Shown: one piece after another, positions 445 to 13,066 of the stretch
How the letters are laid out: each line of letters begins with the position of its first letter
Numbering within the stretch: the stretch's first letter is position 1
Source of the DNA: Salinibacterium sp.
GTDB lineage: Bacteria > Actinomycetota > Actinomycetes > Actinomycetales > Microbacteriaceae
Direction of reading: 5' to 3'
DNA length: 64,000 nt
Assembly: GCA_019638845.1 (NCBI GenBank)
Contig: JAHBSZ010000001.1
Span: 682,001-746,000, forward strand
Notes under the pieces: generated by a model
What the model was told of the DNA's origin: nothing
Database searches by the model: none
The model's input: the letters and a program-made list of their open reading frames with translations, nothing else
Made by a program: the position numbers and the translations under genes

Positions 445-861
445 TCAGGATTCGCCGTCGCGAGCGCGTAGCGCGTAGGTGCCCGACGTAAGCGTTTCGT
501 ACGAGCTGGCCACAACCTTCCCGAGGACGTCGAGATCAATGAGCTCGAGATCTTTGATGTAGACGCAACCGACACCAGTCGTGTGCGGGCCGAGACGCTC
601 GAGCATCGCGGAATGCGCGGCAACTCCGTCCACGAGATAGACAGTCATCGCTGCCTTGCGCGGGGCGAACGCGGCTGCCGCCGTGTCACCCTCGCGCCCG
701 CTCTCATACCGGTAGTGGTAGTGGCCGTAGCCGACAATGGTCCCCCACAGTCGGGGCTCAGAGCCTGTCGCGCTCGAAAAGAGGTGGAGCAGGGTTTCAG
801 CGTCACGCCGACGCTTCAACGGGGTCACACTCGCGATGAACGCGTCGATCTCGCTACTCAT
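445..861 (-). CDS. DUF1801 domain protein
   Basis: This 138-residue protein matches the DUF1801 (YdhG-like) family. The family pattern is visible: RRRDAETLLHLFSSATG near the N-terminus, then LWGTIVGYGHYHYRYESG (residues about 39-56), the AAFAPRKAAMTVYL strand, and the C-terminal GVGCVYIKDLELIDLDVL block. The fold is a small alpha/beta domain of unproven biochemical role. The gene reads in the same direction as the truncated marR and lies just upstream of it, so the two may share a transcript across the palindrome. Length is normal for the family and no damage is visible. Confidence 0.8.
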   Translation of the reverse strand: MSSEIDAFIASVTPLKRRRDAETLLHLFSSATGSEPRLWGTIVGYGHYHYRYESGREGDTAAAAFAPRKAAMTVYLVDGVAAHSAMLERLGPHTTGVGCVYIKDLELIDLDVLGKVVASSYETLTSGTYALRARDGES

Positions 862-1086
862 GTGGGGATATTACCCGGGGCCCTTCGACTGGATGCAGCG
901 CATCCAGTCAGCGCCCGGGGGAGATAACGTACTCTGACGTCGACGGAATGACGAAGGCTTGGCGGGACACTCTTGAGCGGACGATGGATGAGAAGAAGGA
1001 CTGGATCCCTTCTTCTCATCTTGTGCGGGATGTCGGCTTTCACCGCACGACCTCAGTTGTAGAACGAACGAACCTCGCGCTCAGCA
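862..1086. other. Intergenic spacer left of the island
   Basis: About 225 bases between the DUF1801 start and the left 214-bp repeat. Short open frames here have no recognisable domain and read through a long hairpin, so I call no gene. The only structured element is the inverted repeat at 987-1020. Confidence 0.5.
987..1020. terminator. Perfect 13-bp stem hairpin, possible terminator
   Basis: GATGAGAAGAAGG at 987-999 is perfectly complementary to CCTTCTTCTCATC at 1008-1020 around an 8-base loop. Only TT follows on the plus strand, so the U-tract is weak. It may be a terminator for transcripts leaving the island or an operator-type dyad. Confidence 0.45.
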
Positions 1087-1300
1087 GTGCCCCTGGAGGG
1101 ACTCGACGCCCCACCCGTGCCGCCGCCACATCGCGCGGTAGCCCGCATCCGGATCGCCCACGCACAGCGCAATGCGCCGGACTGCGCGGGCGGGGACCCC
1201 GGGCTTCTAGGGGCCACCCATGAGTACGAATTAAAAGAGGATCGCTGCGGAAGTCTCGCCGAGCCGACCCGCAATGCAGCGATCCTCCTTTATTTCGTGC
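1087..1300. repeat. Left 214-bp direct repeat (att-like, copy A)
   Basis: Nearly identical to 10822-11035, with only a handful of substitutions (for example CCCGTGCC versus CCCGTTCC, and changes around the hairpin tail). It opens with the 20-bp tRNA 3'-end core and contains the same long hairpin (arms 1233-1248 and 1276-1290). In this copy the T-rich tail of the hairpin is mismatched. The repeat ends at the shared TTCGTGC, after which the two sequences diverge. Confidence 0.85.
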
Positions 1301-1722
1301 ACCTTCTGCAGGTTTACTCGAACCCCTCGGCGAATCGCCTCTCTCCCCAGGCGTTGCTCTTCCGATCGACTGAGTCCACCCGACCCGCTGAAGCCGAAAC
1401 GGTCGCTGTTCGATCCGCCCGGCAGTTGCGAGAGAAGGAGCTGGAGCGATTGGTCGATCGATACCTCGAGGTTCGCAACATGAGGCAGGTCGCCCGCGAG
1501 ATGCGGGTGTCACGCACTACTGTCGCGAAGGTGCTCAAGGGCAGAGGAATTGATACCTCGTCGAGCATGAAGCCAGCCGACGTTGAGCGGGCCGTCGGAC
1601 TCTACGTCGAGGGCCACTCAAGTGGGGCCATCGGAAGGCGTCTGGGCTTCGACAACCACACGGTGCTCAGTGCTCTTCGATCTGAGGGTGTTCAGATCCG
1701 GCCACAGCTCACGAGTAGCTAG
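1297..1722 (+). CDS. Double helix-turn-helix protein at island end
   Basis: The conserved part is about 105 residues with two consecutive HTH units: MRQVAREMRVSRTTVAKVLK, then a linker and SSGAIGRRLGFDNHTVLSAL. Small proteins of this type are commonly found directly downstream of large serine recombinases in actinobacterial elements. I placed the start at a GTG at 1297, which lies in the last bases of the left repeat, giving 141 residues. The reading frame is in fact open back through the whole repeat to 1087, so the start is uncertain. It may assist recombination or regulate the element; neither is shown here. Confidence 0.55.
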   Translation: MHLLQVYSNPSANRLSPQALLFRSTESTRPAEAETVAVRSARQLREKELERLVDRYLEVRNMRQVAREMRVSRTTVAKVLKGRGIDTSSSMKPADVERAVGLYVEGHSSGAIGRRLGFDNHTVLSALRSEGVQIRPQLTSS

Positions 1723-1757
1723 TCGCCTCGGACGCTCCCCCGCCCTACGCTCAAGCC

Positions 1758-2836
1758 ATGTCTTCGATTCTGACTCTCAACGCTCGGGACGGCGTCGGCC
1801 TTACGGTCGCCCGCAAGATGTTCAAGATGTCGTCGGAGGAGTTCGGAGGCTTCATTCGCGAGCACTATACGACCCTCCAGAGCGAGCTAGCAAAGGTCGG
1901 CGTCACCTATGACGCATTGAGCCCGGCACTTCTCCCTTCGACCACCCGTCATGAAATCGCGTTGCTCTTCAACATCGATCTCATCGGCTCATCGATGTAT
2001 GGAAGGGCCATCGCTAAGCGGCTCATCCCCCTGCTCGAGCCCGAAGCAACCTTGAGCGTACTCGTTGGCGATATCTTCCTGCATCCCCAAGCCGTCCGCG
2101 AGATGGCGCGCTACGCCGGATTCGTCCCGAGCGACCTTCACGAGTGGGGTCAGGACTATCTCTTCTGCGTTTATCTCAACAACCTCAGCGAAAGTCAGCG
2201 CGACGCTTTGCATAACGGATTCTTCGGCAGCCCTGGCTATCTCGGCTACGTGCGGCGACTTACAACTCTTACTCTCGCACCACCGCGGGGTCGACGTTGC
2301 CCACCGCTTTCGTGAAACACAAAGGCTTCATGCTCGTTGACCACGGCGGGGATGACCCGTGGGTAGGAGATTCGAACGAGATTGGCTACCCGTTCGAGGA
2401 GAACGGATACTAAGGTCGTCAGCGTCAACAGCGACCTCTTCTCGCCACTGCTCTCCTACAAGATTCAGTCGGAAGTGACTCCTCGATACCAGGAGGACGT
2501 GCTCGTCTCGCTCAACGCCATCTCGGACGAGCCAATGTCGCTGGACGGTTTTGAGGTACTTCTGCCCGAGGCCAAGTTCGGTTACCTACAATCTGCCAAG
2601 GGCGAGATCTTGAAGATCGCCGGCCTCGACAAGCACTCCCGCGAAGAGCTCGCATCCGCATACGAGCCGAGCTGGATAGCGATTACATCTACCGACTGCA
2701 GCACAACGTCGATGGCACAGTGCAATTCACTGTCGCGCTGGAGCTACCCCGCGACGAGGCCCACCCGATCAAGGTGGCAGTCGGACTCAAATACTTTCCG
2801 GACACGAAGACGCTGAGCGTGGTCACTCTGACGTAG
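1758..2836 (+). pseudogene. Unrecognised gene with three frameshifts
   Basis: A plausible coding sequence of about 358 codons begins at ATG 1758 (MSSILTLNARDGVGLTVARK) but changes frame three times. The first frame runs to about 2258. The second carries KGFMLVDHGGDDPWVGDSN and stops at 2411-2413. The third carries TKVVSVNSDLFSPLLSYKIQ, and the last (LDSDYIYRLQHNVDGTVQF) ends with TAG at 2834-2836. Protein-like composition continues across all breaks, so this is one damaged gene rather than several small ones. I recognise no domain. It lies directly before the defence locus and could have been part of it. Sequencing indels are an alternative explanation. Confidence 0.6.
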
Positions 2837-2850
2837 TCCACATCTCAATC

Positions 2851-3369
2851 TCAGTCGACACGCGTGGTCGGAATCGACCCCGCCATCGCGATCGCGTCAG
2901 CCAGACGGTCGACCAACTGAGCGAACAGCACGATGAGATGATCGAACCGGTCTCGGTCCATCTCGACCCAGGAAGTCCATACAGCCTCGCTCCCCGGCAA
3001 AGCCTCCTCGCGCTGTCCAGGCGGGAGATTCCGCCACCCACGCGCGACCTCGACAGAGTTGTCTGGCCACAGGCTGTGCACGACCGCGTTGCGACGCTTC
3101 AGGGCAGCGTCAACCTCGTCTAGTAACTCAAGCGTCTTCACCGCGAATGCTTCGTATTCTCCGCCCAACCCTCGGATATACGTTCGGCAAAGTTCTATGT
3201 TGCCGTTGACCGGCTTGCCCGCATGAGCGTTTGAGGCTTTGCCCTCGGTAAGCGCGCCGACCATAACCACTCTGCCGATCAGGGCCGGTAACCAGTCCGG
3301 CACGACCCCAAATATTCCAGGGAAGAAAGACTTGCTCGAATCCAGTTTCACGGCGTTGGGGAGCGGCAC
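2851..3369 (-). CDS. Small HEPN-motif protein downstream of the methyltransferase
   Basis: A 172-residue, mostly helical protein that I do not recognise as a named family. The segment DAALKRRNAVVHSLW contains RNAVVH (residues 93-98), matching the R-x4-H catalytic signature of HEPN ribonucleases, with the usual N after R. It starts at GTG 3369, only 11 bases after the methyltransferase stop, so the two are probably co-transcribed. HEPN proteins act as RNases in toxin-antitoxin and abortive-infection systems. That makes a toxin or effector role plausible but unproven. Confidence 0.55.
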   Translation of the reverse strand: MPLPNAVKLDSSKSFFPGIFGVVPDWLPALIGRVVMVGALTEGKASNAHAGKPVNGNIELCRTYIRGLGGEYEAFAVKTLELLDEVDAALKRRNAVVHSLWPDNSVEVARGWRNLPPGQREEALPGSEAVWTSWVEMDRDRFDHLIVLFAQLVDRLADAIAMAGSIPTTRVD

Positions 3370-3380
3370 GACTTCGGCGC

Positions 3381-4658
3381 TTAAAGCTCGCCGGTCATCG
3401 GAAGCTCCTGGTGTGGGTTGACTTCTGAGAGATCGCGGCCAGCGGCCTCAAAGCCGCTGCCTTTCACCGCTGAGATCGCTTCATCAGCCGACGTAATGTA
3501 CTGCGGTGAGACGTCAATGCCGATGAAGCGCCGTCCGAGCGCTCGCGCCGCAACCCCACTGTTGCCACTACCGACGAACGGATCCAGCACAACATCGTTG
3601 ACGTCCGTGCTGAGGCCTATGCATCGCCCGGGGAGAGCCGTTGGGAATTGAGCCCCATGGCCGTTCTTGCCGCTTGAGGTCGGCATCACCCATACGTCGG
3701 AAAGCTTGTCGGACTCGTATCCGACATTGCGACCGCCGAGGGTTGGTCGCATGCGGCGATAGGCAGTTTTGTCGAACTTAGGCGCCCGCACAGTGGACAT
3801 GTGGATGATGTACTCGAGACCTCTGCTGACGCGAGAGTTCTGCGGTTCGGGCATGCTGCTCGGCTTCGCCCAAGTAATGACGCTCTTGACGAAGTAGCCG
3901 AGACGGCTAGCACGCTCCGCGATCTGTGTGGGTAGCAGGCACTGCTCCCCGTCCTTCAAATACGAGTGGCCCGCGCTGTACCGACGCGCATCGTGGTCCG
4001 CCCAGGACTTGGTCTCCTTGCCCTGCATCGCACGGAGAGCCTCGGCGGCGTTGCCTCGGATCTGTGTGCGGGTGTTGTACGAGTCCATGATGTTCCACCA
4101 GATCGAGGCTTCATCGGTGAGCACTGGACGGAGTTGGTGCAAGATTTGGACAGTGTGCCGGACGAATCCTTCCGGCGTCTGCTCGTGCCCGTAAGCACAC
4201 TCTTCGCCATCGGCCCAGCCCACGATCTTGGAGTCCTTGTACATTCGAAGACCCCAGTACGGAGTCGACGTCACCACGCACTGAACGCTGCCCGGCTCGA
4301 TCAAGGACAGTACCTCGGTGACATTTCCCTCAATGAGCAAGTAGTCCTCGAGCTCAGGGGTCTCGGCCGTCTGGTTCACTTCCGACTCACGGACGAGGTA
4401 GTCGAGTACCTGACTCCGGGGCACGAAGGTTTCGCCAAAGGCATCCTGGTCCATGAGCGCGATCACCTCATCTACAGTGACGTCGCCTCCGTGGCCTAAG
4501 GCACGACGGACGAAGTGGGGAGCCATGCCAACGATCGGCGCAACAGACTCAACCGAAAAGCGCTCCGGTCGCCCGATCCAGGCAGCTCTATCCAGGGACG
4601 CCAGGGGGGTCCGAGGCTTGATGTCCGGGAGCTGTACCGCTTGCTTGAGGGTCACCAC
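3381..4658 (-). CDS. Beta-class DNA methyltransferase (N4-cytosine or N6-adenine)
   Basis: A 425-residue protein when started at GTG 4658, which has GGAG five bases upstream; an in-frame extension to 4760 lacks this signal. The catalytic motif IV is TSTPYWG (residues 130-136), a variant of TSPPYW. The SAM-binding motif I, DPFVGSGNSG, follows near residue 359. The order catalytic-then-SAM-binding defines the beta class. The enzyme would methylate an amino group in its recognition sequence and protect host DNA. It diverges from the McrB-like ATPase gene across about 245 bp, consistent with a restriction-modification locus. The S-to-T-P change in motif IV (TSTPYW) is unusual but keeps the P-Y-W core. 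Confidence 0.85.
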   Translation of the reverse strand: MVTLKQAVQLPDIKPRTPLASLDRAAWIGRPERFSVESVAPIVGMAPHFVRRALGHGGDVTVDEVIALMDQDAFGETFVPRSQVLDYLVRESEVNQTAETPELEDYLLIEGNVTEVLSLIEPGSVQCVVTSTPYWGLRMYKDSKIVGWADGEECAYGHEQTPEGFVRHTVQILHQLRPVLTDEASIWWNIMDSYNTRTQIRGNAAEALRAMQGKETKSWADHDARRYSAGHSYLKDGEQCLLPTQIAERASRLGYFVKSVITWAKPSSMPEPQNSRVSRGLEYIIHMSTVRAPKFDKTAYRRMRPTLGGRNVGYESDKLSDVWVMPTSSGKNGHGAQFPTALPGRCIGLSTDVNDVVLDPFVGSGNSGVAARALGRRFIGIDVSPQYITSADEAISAVKGSGFEAAGRDLSEVNPHQELPMTGEL

Positions 4659-4902
4659 TACTGCTCCGTTTCCTTGCCTACCTACACCTTGCCATGGCTT
4701 CCGGATCGGACCGAGCCAACCCACCGGGATCGGCCCGGAACTGGCGCCTTGAGCCCCCACAAGCCCCTTACTGAAGCATCAGCCTCCGACACGGAGGTCT
4801 CCCTCGAGCGACCAGAACCGTCGATCCCGAATGTCTGTCATAACCCGCCCATAGAATCGACACAGGCGAAATGTCTGCACGCAGAACACTCTGGGAGACG
4901 CA

Positions 4903-6687
4903 GTGTCGAAGTATTCCGAAGAAGCGATGGAACTCGCGCTGACCCAGCTGAGCGAGCATGCGGCGAGCGGTAAGGCTCGCTCAAACTGGATGTCGGCATT
5001 CCTTGTTGCGACCCGCATGCGGCGAGCAAGTTACCCCAACAACACGAGCGGAACAGACTCGGGCGTCGCTGATCTGTTCACGTTGATTCCCGACAATCCG
5101 CGCGGGCGGATCAATCCATTCATAGACCTGTCCTCGAAGATGCGGTGGCTTGTTACAGCCAACTCCGGCCGCAAGACGGTATGGAACACAGGCACACGAG
5201 ACGGAACCCAGAATGGGCTCTTCACCAACTCGCACTGGGAGAACGGGCTTCGCGCCGACGCTATTGACGTACTGCTTGCCCAGCTCGGAAGCGACGAGCC
5301 TCTTCCGGCCCGGGATGCATTGGCCGTGCTCGTGACGCGAGATCAAGATTGGTCCAGCGAACCATCACGCGACGATCTTCTCGCCGCAGCAGCAGACTTC
5401 CTGGGGCTTCCCGTCAGCGACCTCGAGCGGATCACTGAAGACCGTGCGCTAGGAGCTTCATTGCTTGGCACACCCGAGTGGAGCCCGGCGGCTCTCGAGG
5501 CCTGGCAGTTCGGCCCGCCCGCCCCTGCTGTCGCCACGGGTGGTTCAAGCTACACACTCCCCTACGAAGCCGTGAGCATCGAGACGGTAGGAGAACTTCC
5601 TACTGAGTTCACCAAGTTTCTGGATCACCACGGCATCTCCGCGGGGAGCACAGATGAGATAGTCGACCTGCTCGCCGCGACCTTGTCGAGCCAACTGGTG
5701 ATCATGGCGGGGCCGAGCGGAAGCGGGAAGTCACTAATGGCTTCTGCGTTGGCCGCCTTCTTCGCCCCAAAGACAAGACGGACCCGGCTCGAGGCAACAC
5801 GGCTGCTAGCGCGTAGGGAGGAGTTCTTCGGTTATTTCTCGCATCTGGCGGGCTCACAGTTCATGGCGTACGACCAGCTTCTCGAGTTGCTAGACATCTC
5901 CAAGTCCGAAGAAGTTACTCCCCCGATCATCACCATCGAGGAAGCCAACCTCTCGCCCATTGAAGGCTACCTGTCTCCACTCGTGCACGGGCTTGGCGGG
6001 CTGGAGGCCGAGGTGTTGACCCTCGCGCTTCACTCGCAGCCGGATGAAGTCCCATCTCAAGTTCCCGACCGGGTGGTGCCCGCGAAGCTCAGCATCGAGC
6101 CATACCCACGCTTCTTCCTAACCATCAATGTCGATGCAGACTCCCCCGCACCTGCCCGCAAGGTAGTGAGCCGCGCATGTGTGGTGCTTCTGGAGACCCC
6201 ATCGATCGAGACAACGCTGGCTTCCTCGGACACACTGGTCCAGCCTTCGATTGAAGACGCGGACGGTGAGGCGAAAGGCGTGATCGGTCGCCCGACCGTT
6301 GCTTTCGATCGTTACATCGCCTCTGGCAGTGATGTGCTGCAGCAGAGTTTCATGGCACGCGCAGAACTCCTTCGGGACGCGCTCGGTGGTGACGTCATCA
6401 GCCCTCGCGCCTTCCAGAAGAGCCTCGTTTACATGGCCTGGTTCGTCGAGCTAAGCGGGATAGACGAGCCCGCACCTGACCAGGCTGCCGTGCTCGCTGC
6501 AACCGACAATGCTGTCCTTCACTTCGTTCTTCCGGGACTGGCCGCAGCGCATTTCAGCCTTGCTCTCGCCGCACTTGGTGGAGCTGATCCGAAGGGTGTT
6601 CTTGCATCGAGGATCAGCCGTCTTGCTAACGCCACGACCGGCCAGCACTTTGGTCTGCCGCCGGACTTTTGGGGTGCATTGAGCTGA
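4903..6687 (+). CDS. McrB-like AAA+ ATPase of a restriction system
   Basis: A 594-residue protein starting at GTG 4903 with GGGAG five bases upstream. The N-terminal 250 residues have no domain I can name and are likely the DNA-recognition part. The Walker A motif GPSGSGKS is at residues 270-277 and the Walker B-like stretch IITIEEANLS follows near 342-351, with the EEAN arrangement seen in McrB-type NTPases (usually DEINR or DEANR). McrB proteins form rings that translocate DNA for a partner nuclease. The downstream gene, overlapping its 3' end, encodes such a nuclease. Whether it uses GTP or ATP cannot be told from the sequence. Confidence 0.8.
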   Translation: MSKYSEEAMELALTQLSEHAASGKARSNWMSAFLVATRMRRASYPNNTSGTDSGVADLFTLIPDNPRGRINPFIDLSSKMRWLVTANSGRKTVWNTGTRDGTQNGLFTNSHWENGLRADAIDVLLAQLGSDEPLPARDALAVLVTRDQDWSSEPSRDDLLAAAADFLGLPVSDLERITEDRALGASLLGTPEWSPAALEAWQFGPPAPAVATGGSSYTLPYEAVSIETVGELPTEFTKFLDHHGISAGSTDEIVDLLAATLSSQLVIMAGPSGSGKSLMASALAAFFAPKTRRTRLEATRLLARREEFFGYFSHLAGSQFMAYDQLLELLDISKSEEVTPPIITIEEANLSPIEGYLSPLVHGLGGLEAEVLTLALHSQPDEVPSQVPDRVVPAKLSIEPYPRFFLTINVDADSPAPARKVVSRACVVLLETPSIETTLASSDTLVQPSIEDADGEAKGVIGRPTVAFDRYIASGSDVLQQSFMARAELLRDALGGDVISPRAFQKSLVYMAWFVELSGIDEPAPDQAAVLAATDNAVLHFVLPGLAAAHFSLALAALGGADPKGVLASRISRLANATTGQHFGLPPDFWGALS

Positions 6688-8096
6688 GCGTTCGCCTCGA
6701 CTACATGAGACGTGGACGCTCGCTCTTTCACGTCCAAGTAGAAGGGCGCCTGTTGGCCCCGACGCTGCCACTGGGATTGATCATGTCGGGAAGCGGCTCC
6801 GATTTGTTGCTGATCGAGCCCGACGGTCGATCGTTGTCTGGCCGCCTCAGCTTGCCGATGGTTTTGACCGACAACTCCATCGGATTTGTCGATTTGGAGA
6901 TTCCATCAAGCGGACTCTTCGACCAAGCCGACCTGACGGCGCTATGGCGCGCGGGCGAAGAACTGGCCGACTGGAAGGCGCGCACCGCCCAGGTCGGAGA
7001 AGAGGTCAGCTTCGCGACACCAGAGATTGTTGGGGTAGCGGGCATCGTAATGAGCTGGCGGTCCCTGATCGCGTGTACCCGCGCAGCAAGAAACCTGCTT
7101 GCAGCATGGCCTTCGACGCTGGGGCGTCGACTGAGATGGTCCCCGGTTGGTGTTCCTGCGGGGATAGAAGATTTGGAACGGACCGAGCGAGACGGTCCGG
7201 CTCGTGGCGTGGCGTCTATGACCGGTCACGGTATGTTGATCGCGCAGAGCGCTCGGTGGGTCGGGCAGGCGGAGCGAATCCCTTCGATGTCCGTTCAGCG
7301 TGTAGCGCAGGCAGTGGTCCAGTTGTTCGAACACACTCTCAGCGCCAGGGACTTAGAAAGTGTCAGCCCCCTCCTCCACCCAATCGCCCAAGTCGGATTC
7401 ATAGCCTCACCGCAATCGCAGCGCAGCGATCCAGATCCCTCCTCGTGGCCCCGGCTATTTTCGGAGTTCGTTGTATCTAGCATTCGTGTACTTGCGGACC
7501 TCGCCGCGATCGAACGCGGAACCGGTGCTCTGCCACTGCTCGACACTGACGAACTCTATGAGTCTTGGTTGGCGATTCGAACCCTTGACTTCTTCGATAC
7601 CCGCCTTGGCAACCGACACCACAGTCAGGCCGGCGCACTTGCTGCGTGGAGGAACGATGAGATCCTGTTTGAGCTCTGGCTGAAGCCCGCGTTCCACGGA
7701 TCTCCGAACACAATTGGAAGTGAGCAGTTCGTATCAGTGATCTCTGACGACCTCGTACCAGATCTACTCATTTCAGCAACTCGTGGTGAGCACACCGAGC
7801 TTGCGGCAATCGATGCAAAGGCGTGGGCCAAGATGTTGCCTGAGGACGTGCTCACTCAGGGAGCAAAGTATCTGTACGGTATTCGCCGCCACCCGGATAA
7901 GGCGATTGTTCCTGCACTGTCCTCCGCTCTGATCGTTACCTCGGCGGTTCGACCACACGCGATCGAGTCCGACCTCGCAAAGCTCCATGTCGTTCGGTCT
8001 ACGCCCACCTCGGAACAGTCCACTCTGGACGTTCGACTCGACGCGTTGATCACCGAACTGCGCGAGACACTCGCGAACCGCGAGCGCGAAGCATAG
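6669..8096 (+). CDS. McrC-like / DUF2357-type PD-(D/E)xK nuclease subunit
   Basis: The 475-residue reading overlaps the end of the McrB-like gene by 19 bases, implying translational coupling. The C-terminal third contains ELYESWLAIRTLDFF, then VPDLLI (Asp365) and LAAIDAKAW (Asp382, Lys384), a classic PD-(D/E)xK nuclease core. The order matches McrC and LlaJI-type partners of McrB ATPases. The start is ambiguous: TTG 6669 gives maximal overlap, and ATG 6705 would remove 12 residues. It should supply DNA cleavage to the ATPase ring. The long N-terminal part is unassigned. Confidence 0.7.
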   Translation: MGCIELSVRLDYMRRGRSLFHVQVEGRLLAPTLPLGLIMSGSGSDLLLIEPDGRSLSGRLSLPMVLTDNSIGFVDLEIPSSGLFDQADLTALWRAGEELADWKARTAQVGEEVSFATPEIVGVAGIVMSWRSLIACTRAARNLLAAWPSTLGRRLRWSPVGVPAGIEDLERTERDGPARGVASMTGHGMLIAQSARWVGQAERIPSMSVQRVAQAVVQLFEHTLSARDLESVSPLLHPIAQVGFIASPQSQRSDPDPSSWPRLFSEFVVSSIRVLADLAAIERGTGALPLLDTDELYESWLAIRTLDFFDTRLGNRHHSQAGALAAWRNDEILFELWLKPAFHGSPNTIGSEQFVSVISDDLVPDLLISATRGEHTELAAIDAKAWAKMLPEDVLTQGAKYLYGIRRHPDKAIVPALSSALIVTSAVRPHAIESDLAKLHVVRSTPTSEQSTLDVRLDALITELRETLANREREA

Positions 8097-8107
8097 GTGG
8101 GTTGAAC

Positions 8108-9181
8108 GTGGCCATGCCAAAAAGATGGGTCTCAACGCTCCGGACGAGTCTGGCGGAAGCCGCCCTAGCCGTTCGTCTCTACAACGACTCCTCCGAGCCT
8201 CGGGCCTTCGAGGCGTTCGTCATCCACATGCACGTTGCTTGGCTATACGCACTCCACGCTCGTTTCGAGCGCGATGGAACAGACGTCCGATACCGCAGCA
8301 CTCATGATCCCAAACAGTTTGTTCTGATCGACGGCGAGCCGAAGCGCTGGGAGCTCGCGCGGTGCGCTCTCGAACGATGGCCCGATGAGCGAGATCCCGT
8401 CCGACTAAATCTTGAGTTCTTCATCGCGCTGCGAAACAAGCTAGAGCATCGCCACGATCGATCCGACGCCAACCTCGCCGTTGCCGTCAGCGGGCATTCT
8501 CAAGCTTTACTCCTCAACTACGAAAGCGAAGTGACTACGACTTTCGGTCAGGAATACTCGCTCGCGAGCGTGCTGAGATTTCCCGTATTCATTGGCACCT
8601 TCACCACCGAAGGAGAGGCTGCCCTCCGAAAGCTTCGCAATGAGCTTCCCTCTGAGTTGCGAACATTCATTGCGAACTTCCACTCGGGCCTAGAAACGGA
8701 CCTCGTGGACGACCCGCGTTTCGAGCTTCGACTGAGAGTCGTGCTCGAAAAGGTGAACCGAGATCCCGAGGCGCTCTCAATGCAGTTCACCCGATGGGAC
8801 GACATGTCGGATGAAGAGAAGGAATCTGTACTCGCAATGGGTCGACGAGGGCAGACCGTCGTGCGAGAGCAACAGCGCTCCGTCGTTGGGCTTGGGCTCA
8901 TTCGGCCGCAAGAATGCGAGCGACGAGTTAATCAAGCGATCCCCTTCGGATTCAACAGCCACCACTTTCTGCGCGCTTGGCAGATAAAGCAGATACGCCC
9001 GCCGCGCGATTCAGCAACACCTGAACGAACGGACGAGCGATACTGCGTCTTCGACGCTCTGTCGAGCAGCTATGGATACACAGAGGCTTGGGTCGCTTGG
9101 CTCATCGCTCAATGCGGAACGACTGAAGGATTCAAAGCAGTGACTGGGCGTGACCCAGTAGCCAAACAATCAGCCTCGTGA
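8108..9181 (+). CDS. DUF3644 (HEPN-like) protein
   Basis: The start GTG 8108 has AGGTGGG six bases upstream, overlapping the stop of the nuclease gene, so it is the third gene of the plus-strand operon (357 residues). The N-terminal region resembles DUF3644: SEPRAFEAFVIHMHVAWLYA followed by LEFFIALRNKLEHRHD. RNKLEH is an R-x4-H HEPN-type motif, at residues 109-114 counted from this start. HEPN proteins of this kind are often RNases in defence islands. The C-terminal half has no recognised domain. A role as accessory effector of the restriction system is inferred from position only. Confidence 0.7.
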   Translation: MAMPKRWVSTLRTSLAEAALAVRLYNDSSEPRAFEAFVIHMHVAWLYALHARFERDGTDVRYRSTHDPKQFVLIDGEPKRWELARCALERWPDERDPVRLNLEFFIALRNKLEHRHDRSDANLAVAVSGHSQALLLNYESEVTTTFGQEYSLASVLRFPVFIGTFTTEGEAALRKLRNELPSELRTFIANFHSGLETDLVDDPRFELRLRVVLEKVNRDPEALSMQFTRWDDMSDEEKESVLAMGRRGQTVVREQQRSVVGLGLIRPQECERRVNQAIPFGFNSHHFLRAWQIKQIRPPRDSATPERTDERYCVFDALSSSYGYTEAWVAWLIAQCGTTEGFKAVTGRDPVAKQSAS

Positions 9182-9352: not shown

Positions 9353-9682
9353 TCAGGCGTCCGCCGGTGGCTTCGCCTTGCCGCGAGCGGCAGCGGTAGA
9401 TCCATCGCCGCCGAAGATGGCCTCGATCGCACTTTGCTTGGTCTTGGCCTCGCGCTCGATCTCGGCACGAACCGTCTCAGCCCGAGCGAGCACCTTCGGG
9501 TCGGACTTGCTGGTCACGATCCAGGCTTCAAGGGCGAGACGAATCTCCTCAGTGACACTGCGATCGCTGAGCTGAGCGATGACGTCCAACTGCGCACGCA
9601 GGTCATCCGTGATACGGACGGCGAGCGTCCGCATCTGACTGCTTGCCGGGAATCCCCCGGCGGGTGAAGTGGCATCGGACAT
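9353..9682 (-). CDS. Ribbon-helix-helix DNA-binding protein, orphan
   Basis: A 109-residue protein from ATG 9682; AGGAGG lies about 11 bases upstream. The segment MRTLAVRITDDLRAQLDVIA followed by LSDRSVTEEIRLALEAWI is a typical Arc/CopG ribbon-helix-helix domain: a beta strand, then two helices. The C-terminal tail is charged, as in plasmid and island RHH proteins. Such proteins act as antitoxins or as element regulators. No toxin gene is adjacent; the neighbouring reading frame on its upstream side is broken. It may therefore be an orphan antitoxin or a transcriptional regulator of the island. Confidence 0.7.
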   Translation of the reverse strand: MSDATSPAGGFPASSQMRTLAVRITDDLRAQLDVIAQLSDRSVTEEIRLALEAWIVTSKSDPKVLARAETVRAEIEREAKTKQSAIEAIFGGDGSTAAARGKAKPPADA

Positions 9683-9862
9683 GATGCACACCACCTCCTC
9701 TTCTTCGAGCGGCCGACGAACCCGACATGGGTTCCTCTGCGAAAGCCGCTCTCAGACGAGGAAGCGTGCGGATGATTATGCGCCGACGGATCGTGGCGTC
9801 AATATTCCGTTCGCGAGCGTTGTCAATTCCACAACCCGGTGGGTTTAGGCTGATCGACCGTG

Positions 9863-10212
9863 CTACGCAAGCCGGTAGCCCCGCGCGAGCGCTTCCCTTA
9901 GCCACCTCTCCACCGCGAATATTTCGCGGCCTGAGAATCTCGTCCTCCGCGGTCCACTCGCGCTTTGGTTCTAGGACACCAGCGTCAATCAAAGCCTCAG
10001 GTGGACTACCCAGAGATTGGACGCTCTCAAGCGTGCGATGGAAGACTTGTTTTGCTTTGGGGAGATGCTCCATGAAGTCCAAGTCGAAGAGCTCCAATAC
10101 TGGGGACTTAGCTCGCCAGTAAGCCGACTCGAATCGCGGGTCAGCGATCTGCGAGCTTTCGAGCCAAGGCTGCGGAGACGACGGGTCCAGCCAGGAGTGG
10201 TTGGCGAAGCTC
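9863..10212 (-). pseudogene. Remnant of an unrecognised gene with a frameshift
   Basis: The minus strand shows coherent protein sequence from about 10212 (NHSWLDPSSPQPWLESSQ, DPRFESAYWRAKSPVLELF) to ALIDAGVLEPKREWTAEDE. It then changes frame near 9925 and resumes as FAVERWLREALARGYRLA before TAG at 9863-9865. The upstream side is closed by a stop next to 10213, so the 5' end is missing. It is a broken C-terminal fragment of an unknown protein. Confidence 0.45.
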
Positions 10213-10239
10213 TATAGCCGATGGACTTGTCGCCAATGT

Positions 10240-10821
10240 CAAGGGAAATATGTTTCCTCAAGCGTCCAGCTCGGCCCAGGTTCTACATTGACTCTGTTCG
10301 AGAGCGACGCGCTCGCGCCATTCCCGGGACCACCCCAGATCGCACGGCTGCAAACCCGAGCGGATAACCTCATCGACCTAGTGGCTGACGGCGGGCTAGC
10401 TGGATCCAAGGCACGCGAGAAGATCACCGAGATCGAGCGCGAGCGGACAGGGCTTGAGGTCCGACTCTCCACCATCAATGACGACATCAGCACCGGGGCC
10501 GACTATCTCAAGGGTTGGTTGGAACTGCTGCGCGATCCGTACGAGATGTATCGTGCCGCCAGCAATGAGATGCGCCGCGAACTCAATCAGGCGATCTTCA
10601 AGCGCATCTGGGTGATGGACCAAGACCGCGCCGAGTCCGAACTGGCGGAACCTGCGCGGCTTCTCCTCGAAGCTCAGGTCGCCTGGGCGGAGTCGTTCGG
10701 TCTCGGAATTGACGCCGACACAAACAAAAACGACGCCGAAGCGTCGTCAGATAATGCGTCAACCAGAGAAGACAGACTTGAGCCCGTGGAAGAGGCTCTG
10801 GGTTCTAGTAAGCGTTCTTTG
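10240..10821 (+). pseudogene. C-terminal remnant of a large serine recombinase
   Basis: The residues from about 10320 onward (PQIARLQTRADNLIDLVADG, SKAREKITEIERERTGLE, YEMYRAASNEMRRELNQAIF) match the coiled-coil and C-terminal portion of large serine recombinases. The catalytic resolvase domain and zinc ribbon are missing: the frame starts just after an unrelated broken gene on the other strand. The frame stays open into the right 214-bp repeat, as often seen when an integrase gene ends inside its attachment site. It marks the integrase end of the island and cannot be an active integrase. Confidence 0.65.
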
Positions 10822-11035
10822 GTGCCCCTGGAGGGACTCGACGCCCCACCCGTTCCGCCGCCACATCGCGCGGTAGCCCGCATCCGGATCGCCCACGCAC
10901 AGCGCAATGCGCCGGACTGCGCGGGCGGGGACCCCGGGCTTCTAGGGGCCACCCATGAGTACGAATCAAAAGAGGATCGCTGCGGAAGTCTCGCCGAGCC
11001 GACCCGCAATGCAGCGATCCTCTTTTAATTCGTGC
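10822..11035. repeat. Right 214-bp direct repeat (att-like, copy B)
   Basis: Direct repeat of 1087-1300. It begins with the 20-bp tRNA 3'-end core, contains a strong 16-bp-stem hairpin, and its last bases run into the real tRNA-Arg 3' end, which starts another copy of the core at 11032. The two cores flanking this repeat are 210 bp apart. Confidence 0.85.
10968..11026. terminator. Bidirectional terminator downstream of tRNA-Arg
   Basis: AAAAGAGGATCGCTGC (10968-10983) pairs perfectly with GCAGCGATCCTCTTTT (11011-11026). Both strands end in a run of T after the stem, as expected for a bidirectional intrinsic terminator; the loop is 27 bases. On the minus strand it lies a few bases after the tRNA 3' end and probably terminates that transcript. 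Confidence 0.75.
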
Positions 11036-11104
11036 CCCTGGAGGGACTCGAACCCCCAACCCTTTCCTTAGGACGGAACTGCTCTTCCATTGAGCTACAG
11101 AGGC
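11033..11104 (-). tRNA. tRNA-Arg (anticodon CCT)
   Basis: The minus strand folds as a 72-nt tRNA. The acceptor GCCTCTG pairs with CAGGGGC (one T-G pair), with discriminator A and no encoded CCA. The D arm is GCTCAATGGAAGAGC, the anticodon loop GTCCTAA carries CCT, and the T arm contains GGTTCGAGTCC. CCT reads AGG, a rare arginine codon in GC-rich genomes. The 3' end doubles as the attachment core of the adjacent island and remains intact. Confidence 0.95.
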
Positions 11105-11121: not shown

Positions 11122-12138
11122 CTAGGAGGGTGGGTAGAGGAACTTCTCGACCGACGAGATCGGGATCGTTCGCTGAGTGTAGATGCCGGGAACGTAGTTA
11201 TATTCCTCGACGAGCACGGTGCCGTCACCGTTAATCGCCTTCACGTAGGCGACGTGGTTCGACCAGCCGAACCACGCGACCGACCCGACGATCGGGGTGT
11301 CGCTGATGGGCCAGCCGTGCTGCTCCCATGCGTACTCCCACTGGCTCGCGTTGCCGCCGGTGGGGGTGAGCGTTGACCACACCCACTTGTATGGGGCGCT
11401 GTACGAGCCCTGATCGCGGTTGAGCCGCCACGCCACGAAGTCGACGCACTCGCGGAAGTAGTAGTTGAGCGGCGAAAGGCCACCACCCTGGCGGGACGAA
11501 AGCTCATACGGCCACGGGTAGTCGTCGCCCATCTCACGCGCACCCGAGAGCAGGTAATCCGCGTTGTTCTGGGCGCGCAACTGGTCTTTCGTCATCTCGG
11601 CGAGTTCCGCCTGAGTTGTGGCACGGTAGCCGTCTCGAGTCGCCGCGGTCACTGTCGCGTCAGCACTCACCACGATCGACTGGCTACCGACAGCGAGTGC
11701 GGACTGCTTGGCCGACGAGGAGACGAGGGTGGGGTCCGCGGTCGAAACGGCGTAGGCAGGGAGACCCGCCACCGCGAACAGTCCGCCCACGATGGTCATC
11801 GTGGCGAGCGCACGCAGCGGGTTCTTGGGCTGGGCCTTCGGTGCCGCAGCGCGCATCAGGGCGAGTTCGTTGCGCCGCAACTTGCGGGACGCCGGCCCGC
11901 GCCCCTCGATCTCTCGTGCGGCCACGCGGACGGCACGACGATCCGCTGCCGGGCGCGAAAGCTTGGCACGACGACGGGATGCCGCGTCGCGAGCCTCGCG
12001 GCGAGAGCCGTACTGGGGCGTCCCCGCAGAAGGGTGCGCCGTGGCATCCGTGGATGAGGTCACACCGGATTCGGGGTTACCGAAACCGAAGAGGTCATCC
12101 AAGTTATTGGATGGCGTGACATCAACCAAAACGGACAA
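11122..12138 (-). CDS. Secreted CHAP-domain cell-wall hydrolase (paralogue 1)
   Basis: A protein of up to 338 residues. A long basic N-terminus rich in Arg and Ala (residues 45-95) precedes one hydrophobic segment (about 108-130, ending LPAYA), which looks like a signal or anchor. The C-terminal CHAP domain has the catalytic cysteine in FRECVDFVAWRLN (Cys231) and the histidine in SNHVAYVKA. CHAP enzymes cleave peptidoglycan peptides or act as amidases. The start is uncertain: TTG 12138 is the longest, but TTG 12129 has AAGGGA eight bases upstream. The next gene is a paralogue in the same orientation. Confidence 0.8.
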   Translation of the reverse strand: MSVLVDVTPSNNLDDLFGFGNPESGVTSSTDATAHPSAGTPQYGSRREARDAASRRRAKLSRPAADRRAVRVAAREIEGRGPASRKLRRNELALMRAAAPKAQPKNPLRALATMTIVGGLFAVAGLPAYAVSTADPTLVSSSAKQSALAVGSQSIVVSADATVTAATRDGYRATTQAELAEMTKDQLRAQNNADYLLSGAREMGDDYPWPYELSSRQGGGLSPLNYYFRECVDFVAWRLNRDQGSYSAPYKWVWSTLTPTGGNASQWEYAWEQHGWPISDTPIVGSVAWFGWSNHVAYVKAINGDGTVLVEEYNYVPGIYTQRTIPISSVEKFLYPPS

Positions 12139-12240
12139 TCCCTTCGGGACAGGAGACGGACCTCACGAGAATATTTGATATCCCCGCGAAGTTTCCATTG
12201 TCACAGGAAGATAACAGCATAGCTACCCGTACCCCGGCGT

Positions 12241-12258
12241 GTCCTCACTCCAGAGGAC
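12241..12258 (-). terminator. Short hairpin after the second CHAP gene
   Basis: GTCCTC-ACTCCA-GAGGAC forms a 6-bp stem just after the stop of the upstream CHAP gene (12263). It is followed on the minus strand by GC-rich sequence rather than a T run, so it is a weak terminator candidate. Confidence 0.35.
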
Positions 12259-12262
12259 GCAA

Positions 12263-12991
12263 CTAGCCGGGCGGGTAGAGGTATGTTGCCGAGCCCGCCG
12301 AGATCACACGCTGGCCGTAGGAGTGGTAGTTGCCGTAGTTGTATTCCTCAAGCAGAACCGAGCCATCGCCCAGCACCTGCTTGACGTAAGCGACGTGGTT
12401 GTAGCCCGTAACAGCGACGGCACCAGCGACCGGAGTGCTGCTGACGGGCCAGCCGTGGGCGTACCACGCACTCGTCCACGACGAGGCGCTTCCGCCGCCG
12501 GGAGTGAGGTTGCCCCAATCCCATTTGAACGGACCGGTGTAGCCAGCATCGCGGTTGAGGCGCCACGCGACGAAATCGACGCACTCGCCGTAGTAGTAGC
12601 GCAGCGGTGACAGACCTTCCATCCCTCGCCACGGATAGTCATCGCCTGCCTGAGTGGGACCGGGGTCGCGGTACACATAGGAGGCAGCGAGCGCGGCTGC
12701 CGCCTTGGTCGCGGCGAGCTCCTCGGGAGTTGTCGCCGTAAAGGTATCGCGCACCGCAGCTGCGGGGAGTGCGTCGGCAGAGACCTGGACCGACTGAGCG
12801 CCGATACTGGAGGCGAGAGGCGCGTTGTTCACAACTTCGACGGGGTTCACGGCGTACGCCGGAAGGGCTACGGAGGCGACCATTCCGCCCACTGCTGCCA
12901 TCGTCAGCAAGACGCTTGCCGGGTTCTTGCGAGCGGCCTTGCGGGCGGCCGGTTTCGGCGCCACAAAGCTGCTGATACTGCGTTCGTCCAC
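12263..12991 (-). CDS. Secreted CHAP-domain cell-wall hydrolase (paralogue 2)
   Basis: From GTG 12991 (AGGGG about ten bases upstream) this is 242 residues; an in-frame extension to 13060 is possible but reads through what looks like promoter sequence. A basic stretch and one hydrophobic segment ending LPAYAV form the export signal. The CHAP domain follows, with YYGECVDFVAWRLNRD (catalytic Cys) and GYNHVAYVKQ (His). It is clearly related to the neighbouring CHAP protein, sharing ECVDFVAWRLNRD, AYVK and EEYNY, so the pair arose by tandem duplication. It lacks that protein's long basic N-terminal extension. Confidence 0.8.
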   Translation of the reverse strand: MDERSISSFVAPKPAARKAARKNPASVLLTMAAVGGMVASVALPAYAVNPVEVVNNAPLASSIGAQSVQVSADALPAAAVRDTFTATTPEELAATKAAAALAASYVYRDPGPTQAGDDYPWRGMEGLSPLRYYYGECVDFVAWRLNRDAGYTGPFKWDWGNLTPGGGSASSWTSAWYAHGWPVSSTPVAGAVAVTGYNHVAYVKQVLGDGSVLLEEYNYGNYHSYGQRVISAGSATYLYPPG

Positions 12992-13066
12992 GTTACGTAT
13001 TCCCCTCGGTGGTGCTGGGACCTCATACAAGGTAAGTGAAGAACCTGTGAACAGCAACACAACTCG

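Follow-up and report, generated by a model that had tools for sequence, protein, structure and literature searches.

Layout of the locus

This analysis concerns a five-gene cassette of Salinibacterium sp., at positions 2851–9181 of a 64,000-nucleotide stretch of contig JAHBSZ010000001.1 (the window), which we read as a probable mobile restriction-modification (R-M) system accompanied by HEPN-type proteins. The five open reading frames (ORFs) are full length and their motifs are intact, and their coordinates and strands, as well as their divergent arrangement, are those of the first-pass annotation of this DNA. On the reverse strand lie the gene of a beta-class DNA methyltransferase (MTase; 3381–4760; PF01555) and, directly downstream of it after a gap of 11 bp, that of a small protein of 172 residues (2851–3369) with the motif RNAVVH (R93/H98). 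The gene layout points to a divergent promoter region between MTase and ATPase at 4640–4902, and the three remaining genes are on the forward strand. The first of them encodes an AAA+ type ATPase (4903–6687) with an N-terminal domain (N-domain, residues 1 to ~207), a Walker A motif GPSGSGKS at residue 270, the stretch IITIEEANLSPIEGYLSP and NVD. It is followed by the gene of a PD-(D/E)xK nuclease (6669–8096; motif P364 D365 ... D382 A K384, recognized by eye), the frame of which starts 19 bp inside the ATPase gene, and by that of a HEPN-type DUF3644 protein (8108, or 8102, to 9181; PF12358) with the motif RNKLEH (R109/H114). In both R-x4-H proteins the two motif residues occupy the positions given in that annotation.

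A conserved block of four genes

A tblastn search of 72,556 plasmid records with the nuclease yielded one match, in Rhodococcus fascians A21d2 (NZ_CP049751.1), where the MTase, ATPase, nuclease and DUF3644 genes stand in the same order and orientation as in the window. The identities between the two systems are 72% for the MTase, 58% for the ATPase, 42% for the nuclease and 59% for the DUF3644 protein. The Rhodococcus nuclease frame also begins 19 bp inside the ATPase gene (4336, with the ATPase ending at 4354), and the DUF3644 gene starts 20 bp past the nuclease gene, against 11 bp in the window. Collinear conservation in R. fascians shows four of the ORFs to be genes, and the four-gene block is probably common to two orders, being chromosomal in the one and plasmid-borne in the other. 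The Rhodococcus system lacks the small gene.

The MTase lineage was found in nine systems, namely those of the window and of R. fascians, the loci L009, L010, L012, L013 and L014, the IMG/VR contig L034, and L037 from genome G536, with 49–72% identity among the pairs printed; across these nine systems the MTase is the best conserved gene. A search of 396 phylum genomes with the MTase gave three matches at E<=1e-40, in the window's own genome, in G536 and in G738; the last is L009 again, and L036 comes from the same genome as L009, so that these were counted once. From the scan of viral contigs one of 26 candidates was retained, which is L034.

The first-pass annotation had presented the five genes as one combination, and had named a lack of conserved co-occurrence of the two HEPN-motif genes with the ATPase and nuclease as evidence against it. 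In the stretches examined by tblastn, DUF3644 is present in two of the nine systems and the small gene in one, the absence of HEPN genes from L034 and L037 being limited by contig ends (two of the nine system contigs end close to the genes). The five-gene set therefore does not hold as a unit: DUF3644 recurs with the ATPase and nuclease, and the small gene does not, as it is confined to one of the nine systems and missing from Rhodococcus.

The methyltransferase

The MTase matches PF01555 at 4.7e-40 in Pfam. We take TSTPYWG to be its motif IV and DPFVGSG its motif I. A motif IV of the form S-T-P-Y-W is the rule for N4-cytosine specificity, and the product is thus probably N4-cytosine methylation, as predicted from this motif. 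The true start of the protein is probably downstream of that of the ORF, because about the first 43 ORF residues have no counterparts in the relatives. Its N-terminal domain has the look of a helix-turn-helix (HTH) domain in the alignment, as judged by eye. In M.SsoII, the N-terminal region is described as regulatory (PMC3978073). No operator repeat common to the divergent promoter regions of the window and Rhodococcus was found.

The ATPase and the nuclease

The ATPase had been annotated as McrB-like, a description that its motifs (Walker A, EEANLSPIEGY and N-x-D) and the gene layout support, and that is looser than was stated: the protein scores 13.5 bits against the McrB profile AAA_5, below the cut-off of 22, and it aligns with Escherichia coli McrB at a probability of 31% in hhalign (local mode, as in the other comparisons of these ATPases and nucleases). 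Mg_chelatase is the one Pfam family reached, barely above its cut-off (21.4 against 20.3 bits), over the P-loop, where the other matches are weak, and no McrB was named among 60 of the 133 rows of a profile search of the PDB, most of which cover P-loop stretches. The N-x-D stretch reads NVD or NID in all four aligned ATPases; its equivalence to the known motif was judged by eye, and on that basis the ATPase has the NxD motif variant of CoCoNuT systems. For the N-domain, no PDB sequence was matched (two chains are at E 0.78 and 1), and the structure model is poor, with a predicted local distance difference test (pLDDT) score of 50.5. None of 208 candidates from viral contigs contained the ATPase, and five short weak matches near the P-loop among 149 relatives were rejected.

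In the nuclease, P364, D365, D382, A383, K384, K400 and Y401 are invariant in four of four aligned proteins. No Pfam, PADLOC, NCBIfam or PHROGs family was obtained for it at E<=0.1; in particular, neither the window nor the Rhodococcus nuclease matches the McrC profile PF10117 or any other Pfam family. A single-query scan of genome contigs gave 34 candidate stretches and no relative among them. "McrBC-like" hence rests on motifs and layout, given that the two proteins reach no McrB or McrC profile cut-off.

Putative recognition and cutting modules of different alliance

Relatives of the two proteins were found in different company. With an alignment of the ATPase, six of 40 stretches of genome contigs were retained, five of them titled as Acidimicrobiia or Acidimicrobiaceae metagenome-assembled genomes, and the same MTase is present in five of these six loci (L009, L010 and L012–L014); the contig of the sixth, L011, ends after the ATPase, and this locus was excluded from the nuclease and MTase comparisons. 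The N-domain of the window and Rhodococcus ATPases matches that of the Acidimicrobiia proteins with 99.8% probability (E 3.5e-30) and, weakly, that of L034 (72%, E 3.5e-5). The rest of the machinery gave no match between the window/Rhodococcus and Acidimicrobiia systems, with 13% for the AAA core and 1.6% for the nuclease.

The AAA core and nuclease of the window and Rhodococcus are instead matched at 100% and 99.5% by those of L032 and L033 (genomes G639 and G554), the next closest pairs found, with identities of 32–36% (ATPase) and 25–26% (nuclease). Of four matches in the 396 genomes of the phylum, two are in these genomes, one is in the window's own, and one, in G726, was rejected, as it lies in an integrase-looking ORF. 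In both L032 and L033 the ATPase-nuclease pair stands behind two C5-methylase genes, PF00145 being found in all four MTases, and the N-domain of L033, the one compared, is unrelated to that of the window and Rhodococcus (0.8%).

A further arrangement is seen in L037, where an MTase of the same family stands beside a convergent McrB/McrC-type pair (853–4888) that matches AAA_5 at 1.9e-11 and PF10117 at 2.5e-20. Its N-domain matches none of the other N-domains (at most 1.4%), and its nuclease does not match that of the Acidimicrobiia systems (2.5%), the AAA core of which aligns with E. coli McrB at 95.9%.

Since the N-domain and MTase ally with the Acidimicrobiia systems, and the AAA core and nuclease with L032/L033, the locus looks like the result of a swap between a recognition module and a cutting module, to which HEPN-type proteins appear to have been added. 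The pattern implies that one MTase lineage is paired with several ATPase-nuclease pairs, two types of which share an N-domain, and that the engine of the window is in turn paired with two kinds of MTase. We infer that the MTase and the N-domain recognize the same site.

The DUF3644 protein

Of the five proteins, strong profile matches were obtained for the MTase alone and for the product of the last gene, with PF12358 at 1.4e-40 (139.3 bits, cut-off 27.6) and PADLOC PDC-S19 at 5e-78, and the window protein, a member of PDC-S19/DUF3644 by profile, differs solely in its genetic company. PDC-S19 is the label of a single-gene candidate; no paper on it was found in the literature search. R109, E113, H114 and R115 are invariant in all nine aligned DUF3644 proteins, the window's included. 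A bare R-x4-H means little, because it arises in 67% of 5000 shuffles of this protein and in 20% of 5000 shuffles of the small one (10.6% and 2.6%, respectively, for R[NDH]x3H); it is the conservation that carries weight. DUF3644 overlaps the published HEPN family EC042_2821, which is described as having a conserved Rx4-6H and as occurring in R-M operons (PMC3710099); together with its recurrence in the cassette, this upholds the view of the first-pass annotation that it is a HEPN-motif partner. No HEPN protein was named in profile searches of PDB sequences with DUF3644.

Nine contexts were viewed among the plasmid records that contain DUF3644. R-M genes are directly adjacent in three of them: in the present system of R. 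fascians, in Gordonia (L016), where an Eco57I-like MTase lies two genes upstream in a row of genes that includes DUF3644, and in Rhodococcus pyridinivorans (L019), with an MmeI-like enzyme. The other six have no directly adjacent R-M gene. Within the stretch, methylation or defense genes were seen in L020 and L023 and a PDDEXK nuclease in L017, and no R-M gene in the contexts of L018, L021 and L022. From the scan of viral contigs one of 24 candidates was retained (L038, 52%), in which the DUF3644 relative lies near an integrase-like gene, with no R-M genes in view by eye. Given these varied contexts, with and without R-M genes, DUF3644 appears to be a portable unit.

The small R-x4-H protein

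A single-sequence search with the small protein in 396 genomes of the order gave two matches, the window's own and one in G283 that was rejected as a chance frame, and no relative was detected in the stretches examined of the other eight systems with the MTase. With an alignment of the family, seven of 299 same-family genomes match: the window's own, G1071, which carries the Frondihabitans member, G034, G912, G972, G889 and G055. The last two were rejected as members, G055 because larger frames overlap it (by eye) and G889 as a decayed copy beside type III R-M-looking genes. Viral contigs gave none, whether searched with the single sequence (0 of 3 candidates) or with the alignment (0 of 112).

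The five aligned members share the invariant residues P F G G L E R N H W, among them E42, R93, N94, H98 and W101, and the other four are 23–45% identical to that of the window. No Pfam family reaches its cut-off for the window protein (MbtH has 15.3 bits where 27 are needed), PADLOC, NCBIfam and PHROGs yielded no family at E<=0.1, none of the five members has a Pfam HEPN match, and the family has no profile similarity to DUF3644. The best match in a profile search of PDB sequences is the All3316 protein, at E 0.0084. An AlphaFold2 model is all-helical and places R93–H98 in a helix at 70–100, with a poor pLDDT of 49.8; with this poor model, Foldseek returned nothing at E<=0.001, and no HEPN protein was named among 50 of the 173 rows.

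R-M genes are neighbors of part of the family. In G034 (L048:8344–8865) the gene is embedded in a type I R-M operon, where it overlaps hsdM on one side and hsdS on the other, and on the Frondihabitans plasmid it is 1.8 kb from an hsdM-like gene and further hsd-like genes on the opposite strand, with one ORF between (hsdS alone is annotated there, the others were recognized by eye). In G912 (L046:3595–4830) a 411-residue ORF ends in the small HEPN-like domain, and its front part resembles a uracil-DNA-glycosylase-type protein by eye; the context viewed in G972 shows no R-M gene. The family is thus real by sequence conservation and HEPN-like by motif, and some of its members have R-M genes nearby.

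A probable mobile element at a tRNA gene

Flanking repeats, their overlap with a tRNA gene and an edge of homology suggest that the cassette is part of a mobile element at a tRNA site. A 218-bp direct repeat is present at 1087–1304 and, 98% identical, at 10822–11039, where it runs into the 3' end of a tRNA-Arg (CCT) gene (11032–11104, reverse strand), the likely attachment site. In the same-genus stretches L057–L059, homology to the window begins exactly at 11032 and continues rightwards, and the sole match to the left of it is a 34-bp repeat in L057; in L060 and L061 shared sequence starts from about 10820. By BLAST, the left flank of the window has no counterpart in these five stretches, in three of which the gene content left of the tRNA was viewed. 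The right edge of the element is clear, therefore, and the left edge is not. The tRNA 3'-end sequence is present in three copies, at 1084, 10819 and 11029, which suggests two successive integrations at tRNA-Arg(CCT). A frame from the ORF list at 10201–10821 (forward strand) is a putative recombinase remnant; it has no profile match, and its sequence looks like the C-terminal end of a large serine recombinase.

Several neighboring features complete the picture. In L057 a tyrosine-integrase-looking gene adjoins the tRNA (by eye). The interval from the left repeat to the small gene contains, at 1758–2836 of the window, one or two uncharacterized genes that are seemingly frame-broken by eye. At 9353–9694 (reverse strand) there is a solitary CopG-like ribbon-helix-helix protein (RHH_1, E 0.0076, under the cut-off), perhaps a leftover antitoxin. 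Right of the tRNA, at 11122–13060 (reverse strand), two tandem related proteins have a secreted, CHAP-type look by eye, and related DNA is found in all 27 genus genomes searched, the window's own included.

Relation to known systems

The closest plan is that of LlaJI from plasmid pNP40 of Lactococcus lactis, which comprises two C5 MTases, an NTPase and a PD-(D/E)xK subunit (PMC1459862; PMC12707154) and of which relatives are also known in Clostridium cellulovorans (PMC11779793). LlaJI is reported to restrict unmethylated DNA, with the NTPase R1.LlaJI as sole determinant of specificity and the PD-D/ExK center in the other subunit (PMC1459862). The window likewise combines an MTase with a two-gene unit, in which an NTPase with a separate N-terminal domain precedes a PD-(D/E)xK nuclease, and the relatives of its engine in L032/L033 keep the layout with two C5 MTases; the likeness is drawn from gene plan, published description and these relatives. 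It supports the earlier call of a LlaJI-like restriction locus with a beta-class MTase. Unlike in LlaJI, the MTase gene diverges from the restriction genes, and DUF3644 and small genes are added.

With McrBC (type IV), the locus shares the ATPase-nuclease pair and the N-x-D stretch (by eye). McrBC in the strict sense acts on modified DNA, which it cuts, and is without an MTase, whereas in the window and in Rhodococcus an MTase lies beside the ATPase, and the window has no AAA_5/McrBC profile match. MTase-associated McrBC systems have been called prevalent and deferred to a later publication (Bell et al., 2024, PMC11090510).

The third comparison is with PrrC of the EcoprrI locus, an R-x4-H RNase encoded in an R-M locus and guarding restriction (PMC3710099; PMC12707154). 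PrrC carries an ABC-ATPase and belongs to a type I locus, whereas the window has stand-alone HEPN-type proteins in a LlaJI-like locus. HEPN proteins linked to R-M are already known, and it has been proposed that such domains are held by R-M subunits, like PrrC (PMC3710099). Among the papers listed in a literature search, no description of the present gene combination was found; the novelty seems to lie in the small family and in the pairing of recombined modules to which DUF3644 is attached.

Proposed mechanism and alternatives

Our preferred reading, to which we give a probability of about 0.6, is that the cassette is a mobile LlaJI-like R-M system with DUF3644 as a second-tier RNase and the small protein as a further plug-in. 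It is built on gene order, conservation, shared modules and motifs; the target site, the cutting of unmodified DNA, the RNase activity and its trigger are inferred. The MTase would mark a specific site in host DNA, and the ATPase N-domain, by analogy with LlaJI, would read the same site when unmodified. The AAA+ ring would then load or drive the PD-(D/E)xK nuclease, and foreign DNA would be cut. As long as restriction works, the HEPN-type DUF3644 protein would stay inactive; if restriction were blocked or overwhelmed, it might be freed and bring translation to a halt by cleaving RNA, as PrrC does in the EcoprrI locus. An additional plug-in of this kind may be the small R-x4-H protein.

A number of observations weigh against this reading. 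The ATPase of the window occurs in one plasmid record and DUF3644 in 27, so that DUF3644 is mostly found without the ATPase system. By profile, the ATPase does not fall in McrB, nor the nuclease in McrC, and the ATPases of L032/L033 are also below the AAA_5 cut-off. LlaJI comes with a pair of C5 MTases and an N-domain of the B3 type (PMC12707154), whereas the window has one beta-class MTase and an N-domain without fold assignment. L037 shares the MTase family, and its N-domain is without match (0.1%). Finally, the HEPN fold is confirmed for neither DUF3644 nor the small protein.

The first of these points also favors the most serious alternative, in which the R-M system works as proposed and DUF3644 and the small protein are independent, solo abortive-infection genes that share the element without functional coupling. 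The contexts of L018, L021, L022 and, by eye, the viral contig L038, which have no R-M gene, fit this explanation, as do the single-gene label PDC-S19 and the missing small gene of Rhodococcus. DUF3644 has nevertheless kept its place 11 or 20 bp behind the nuclease gene in probably two orders, and its divergence is similar to that of the ATPase (59% and 58% identity); we therefore regard full independence as unlikely, if by some way the best placed of the rivals.

Less probable still is that the small protein is no RNase and controls DUF3644 or the MTase instead, as an antitoxin or a regulator. Its gene adjoins that of the MTase, outside the ATPase operon, and the protein has no HEPN profile match and a poor model; against this, RNxxxH and E42 are invariant in all five aligned members, and no relative of DUF3644 accompanies the other four in the stretches examined.

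The ATPase-nuclease pair could also be a modification-dependent type IV, McrBC-like nuclease that cuts methylated foreign DNA, with the MTase in another role, such as that of an autoregulator. The two-gene organization, the HTH-looking N-terminus of the MTase (by eye), the true McrC (PF10117) next to an MTase of the same family in L037 and the similarity of the Acidimicrobiia AAA core to that of E. coli McrB would agree with it. The MTase, however, is the best conserved gene of the nine systems, relatives with the LlaJI plan carry MTases too, and a complex that cut the product of its own methylase would be expected to be lethal, which makes this explanation very unlikely. Least credible is a decaying relic, an inactive cassette in an element degenerate on both sides: the seemingly frame-broken genes at ~1758–2836 and the recombinase-like remnant at 10201–10821 (by eye) suggest decay, but the five ORFs are all full length with intact motifs.

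The preferred reading of a LlaJI-like system with HEPN-type plug-ins lends itself to a broader proposal, offered tentatively and at somewhat less than even odds, that of a combinatorial form of R-M. As a recognition pair, a beta-class MTase with an HTH-like N-terminus and a matching N-domain would be mounted on at least two interchangeable engines, that of the window and Rhodococcus and that of the Acidimicrobiia and IMG/VR systems, and the same MTase lineage would also work with a classical McrBC having its own N-domain. In the lineage of the window, HEPN RNases would have been gained as plug-ins, among them a small HEPN-like family that is undescribed and also present in hsd operons, giving a two-tier defense directed at DNA and then at RNA.

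Implications

If these proposals are correct, recognition and cutting would be separable and swappable modules in restriction of the LlaJI/McrBC type, and specificities might be readable across systems from the MTase and N-domain alone. The locus adds a compact R-M context for DUF3644, plus an unnamed small HEPN-like family able to sit in an hsd operon, and it would thereby provide a setting for the old idea that HEPN RNases guard restriction.

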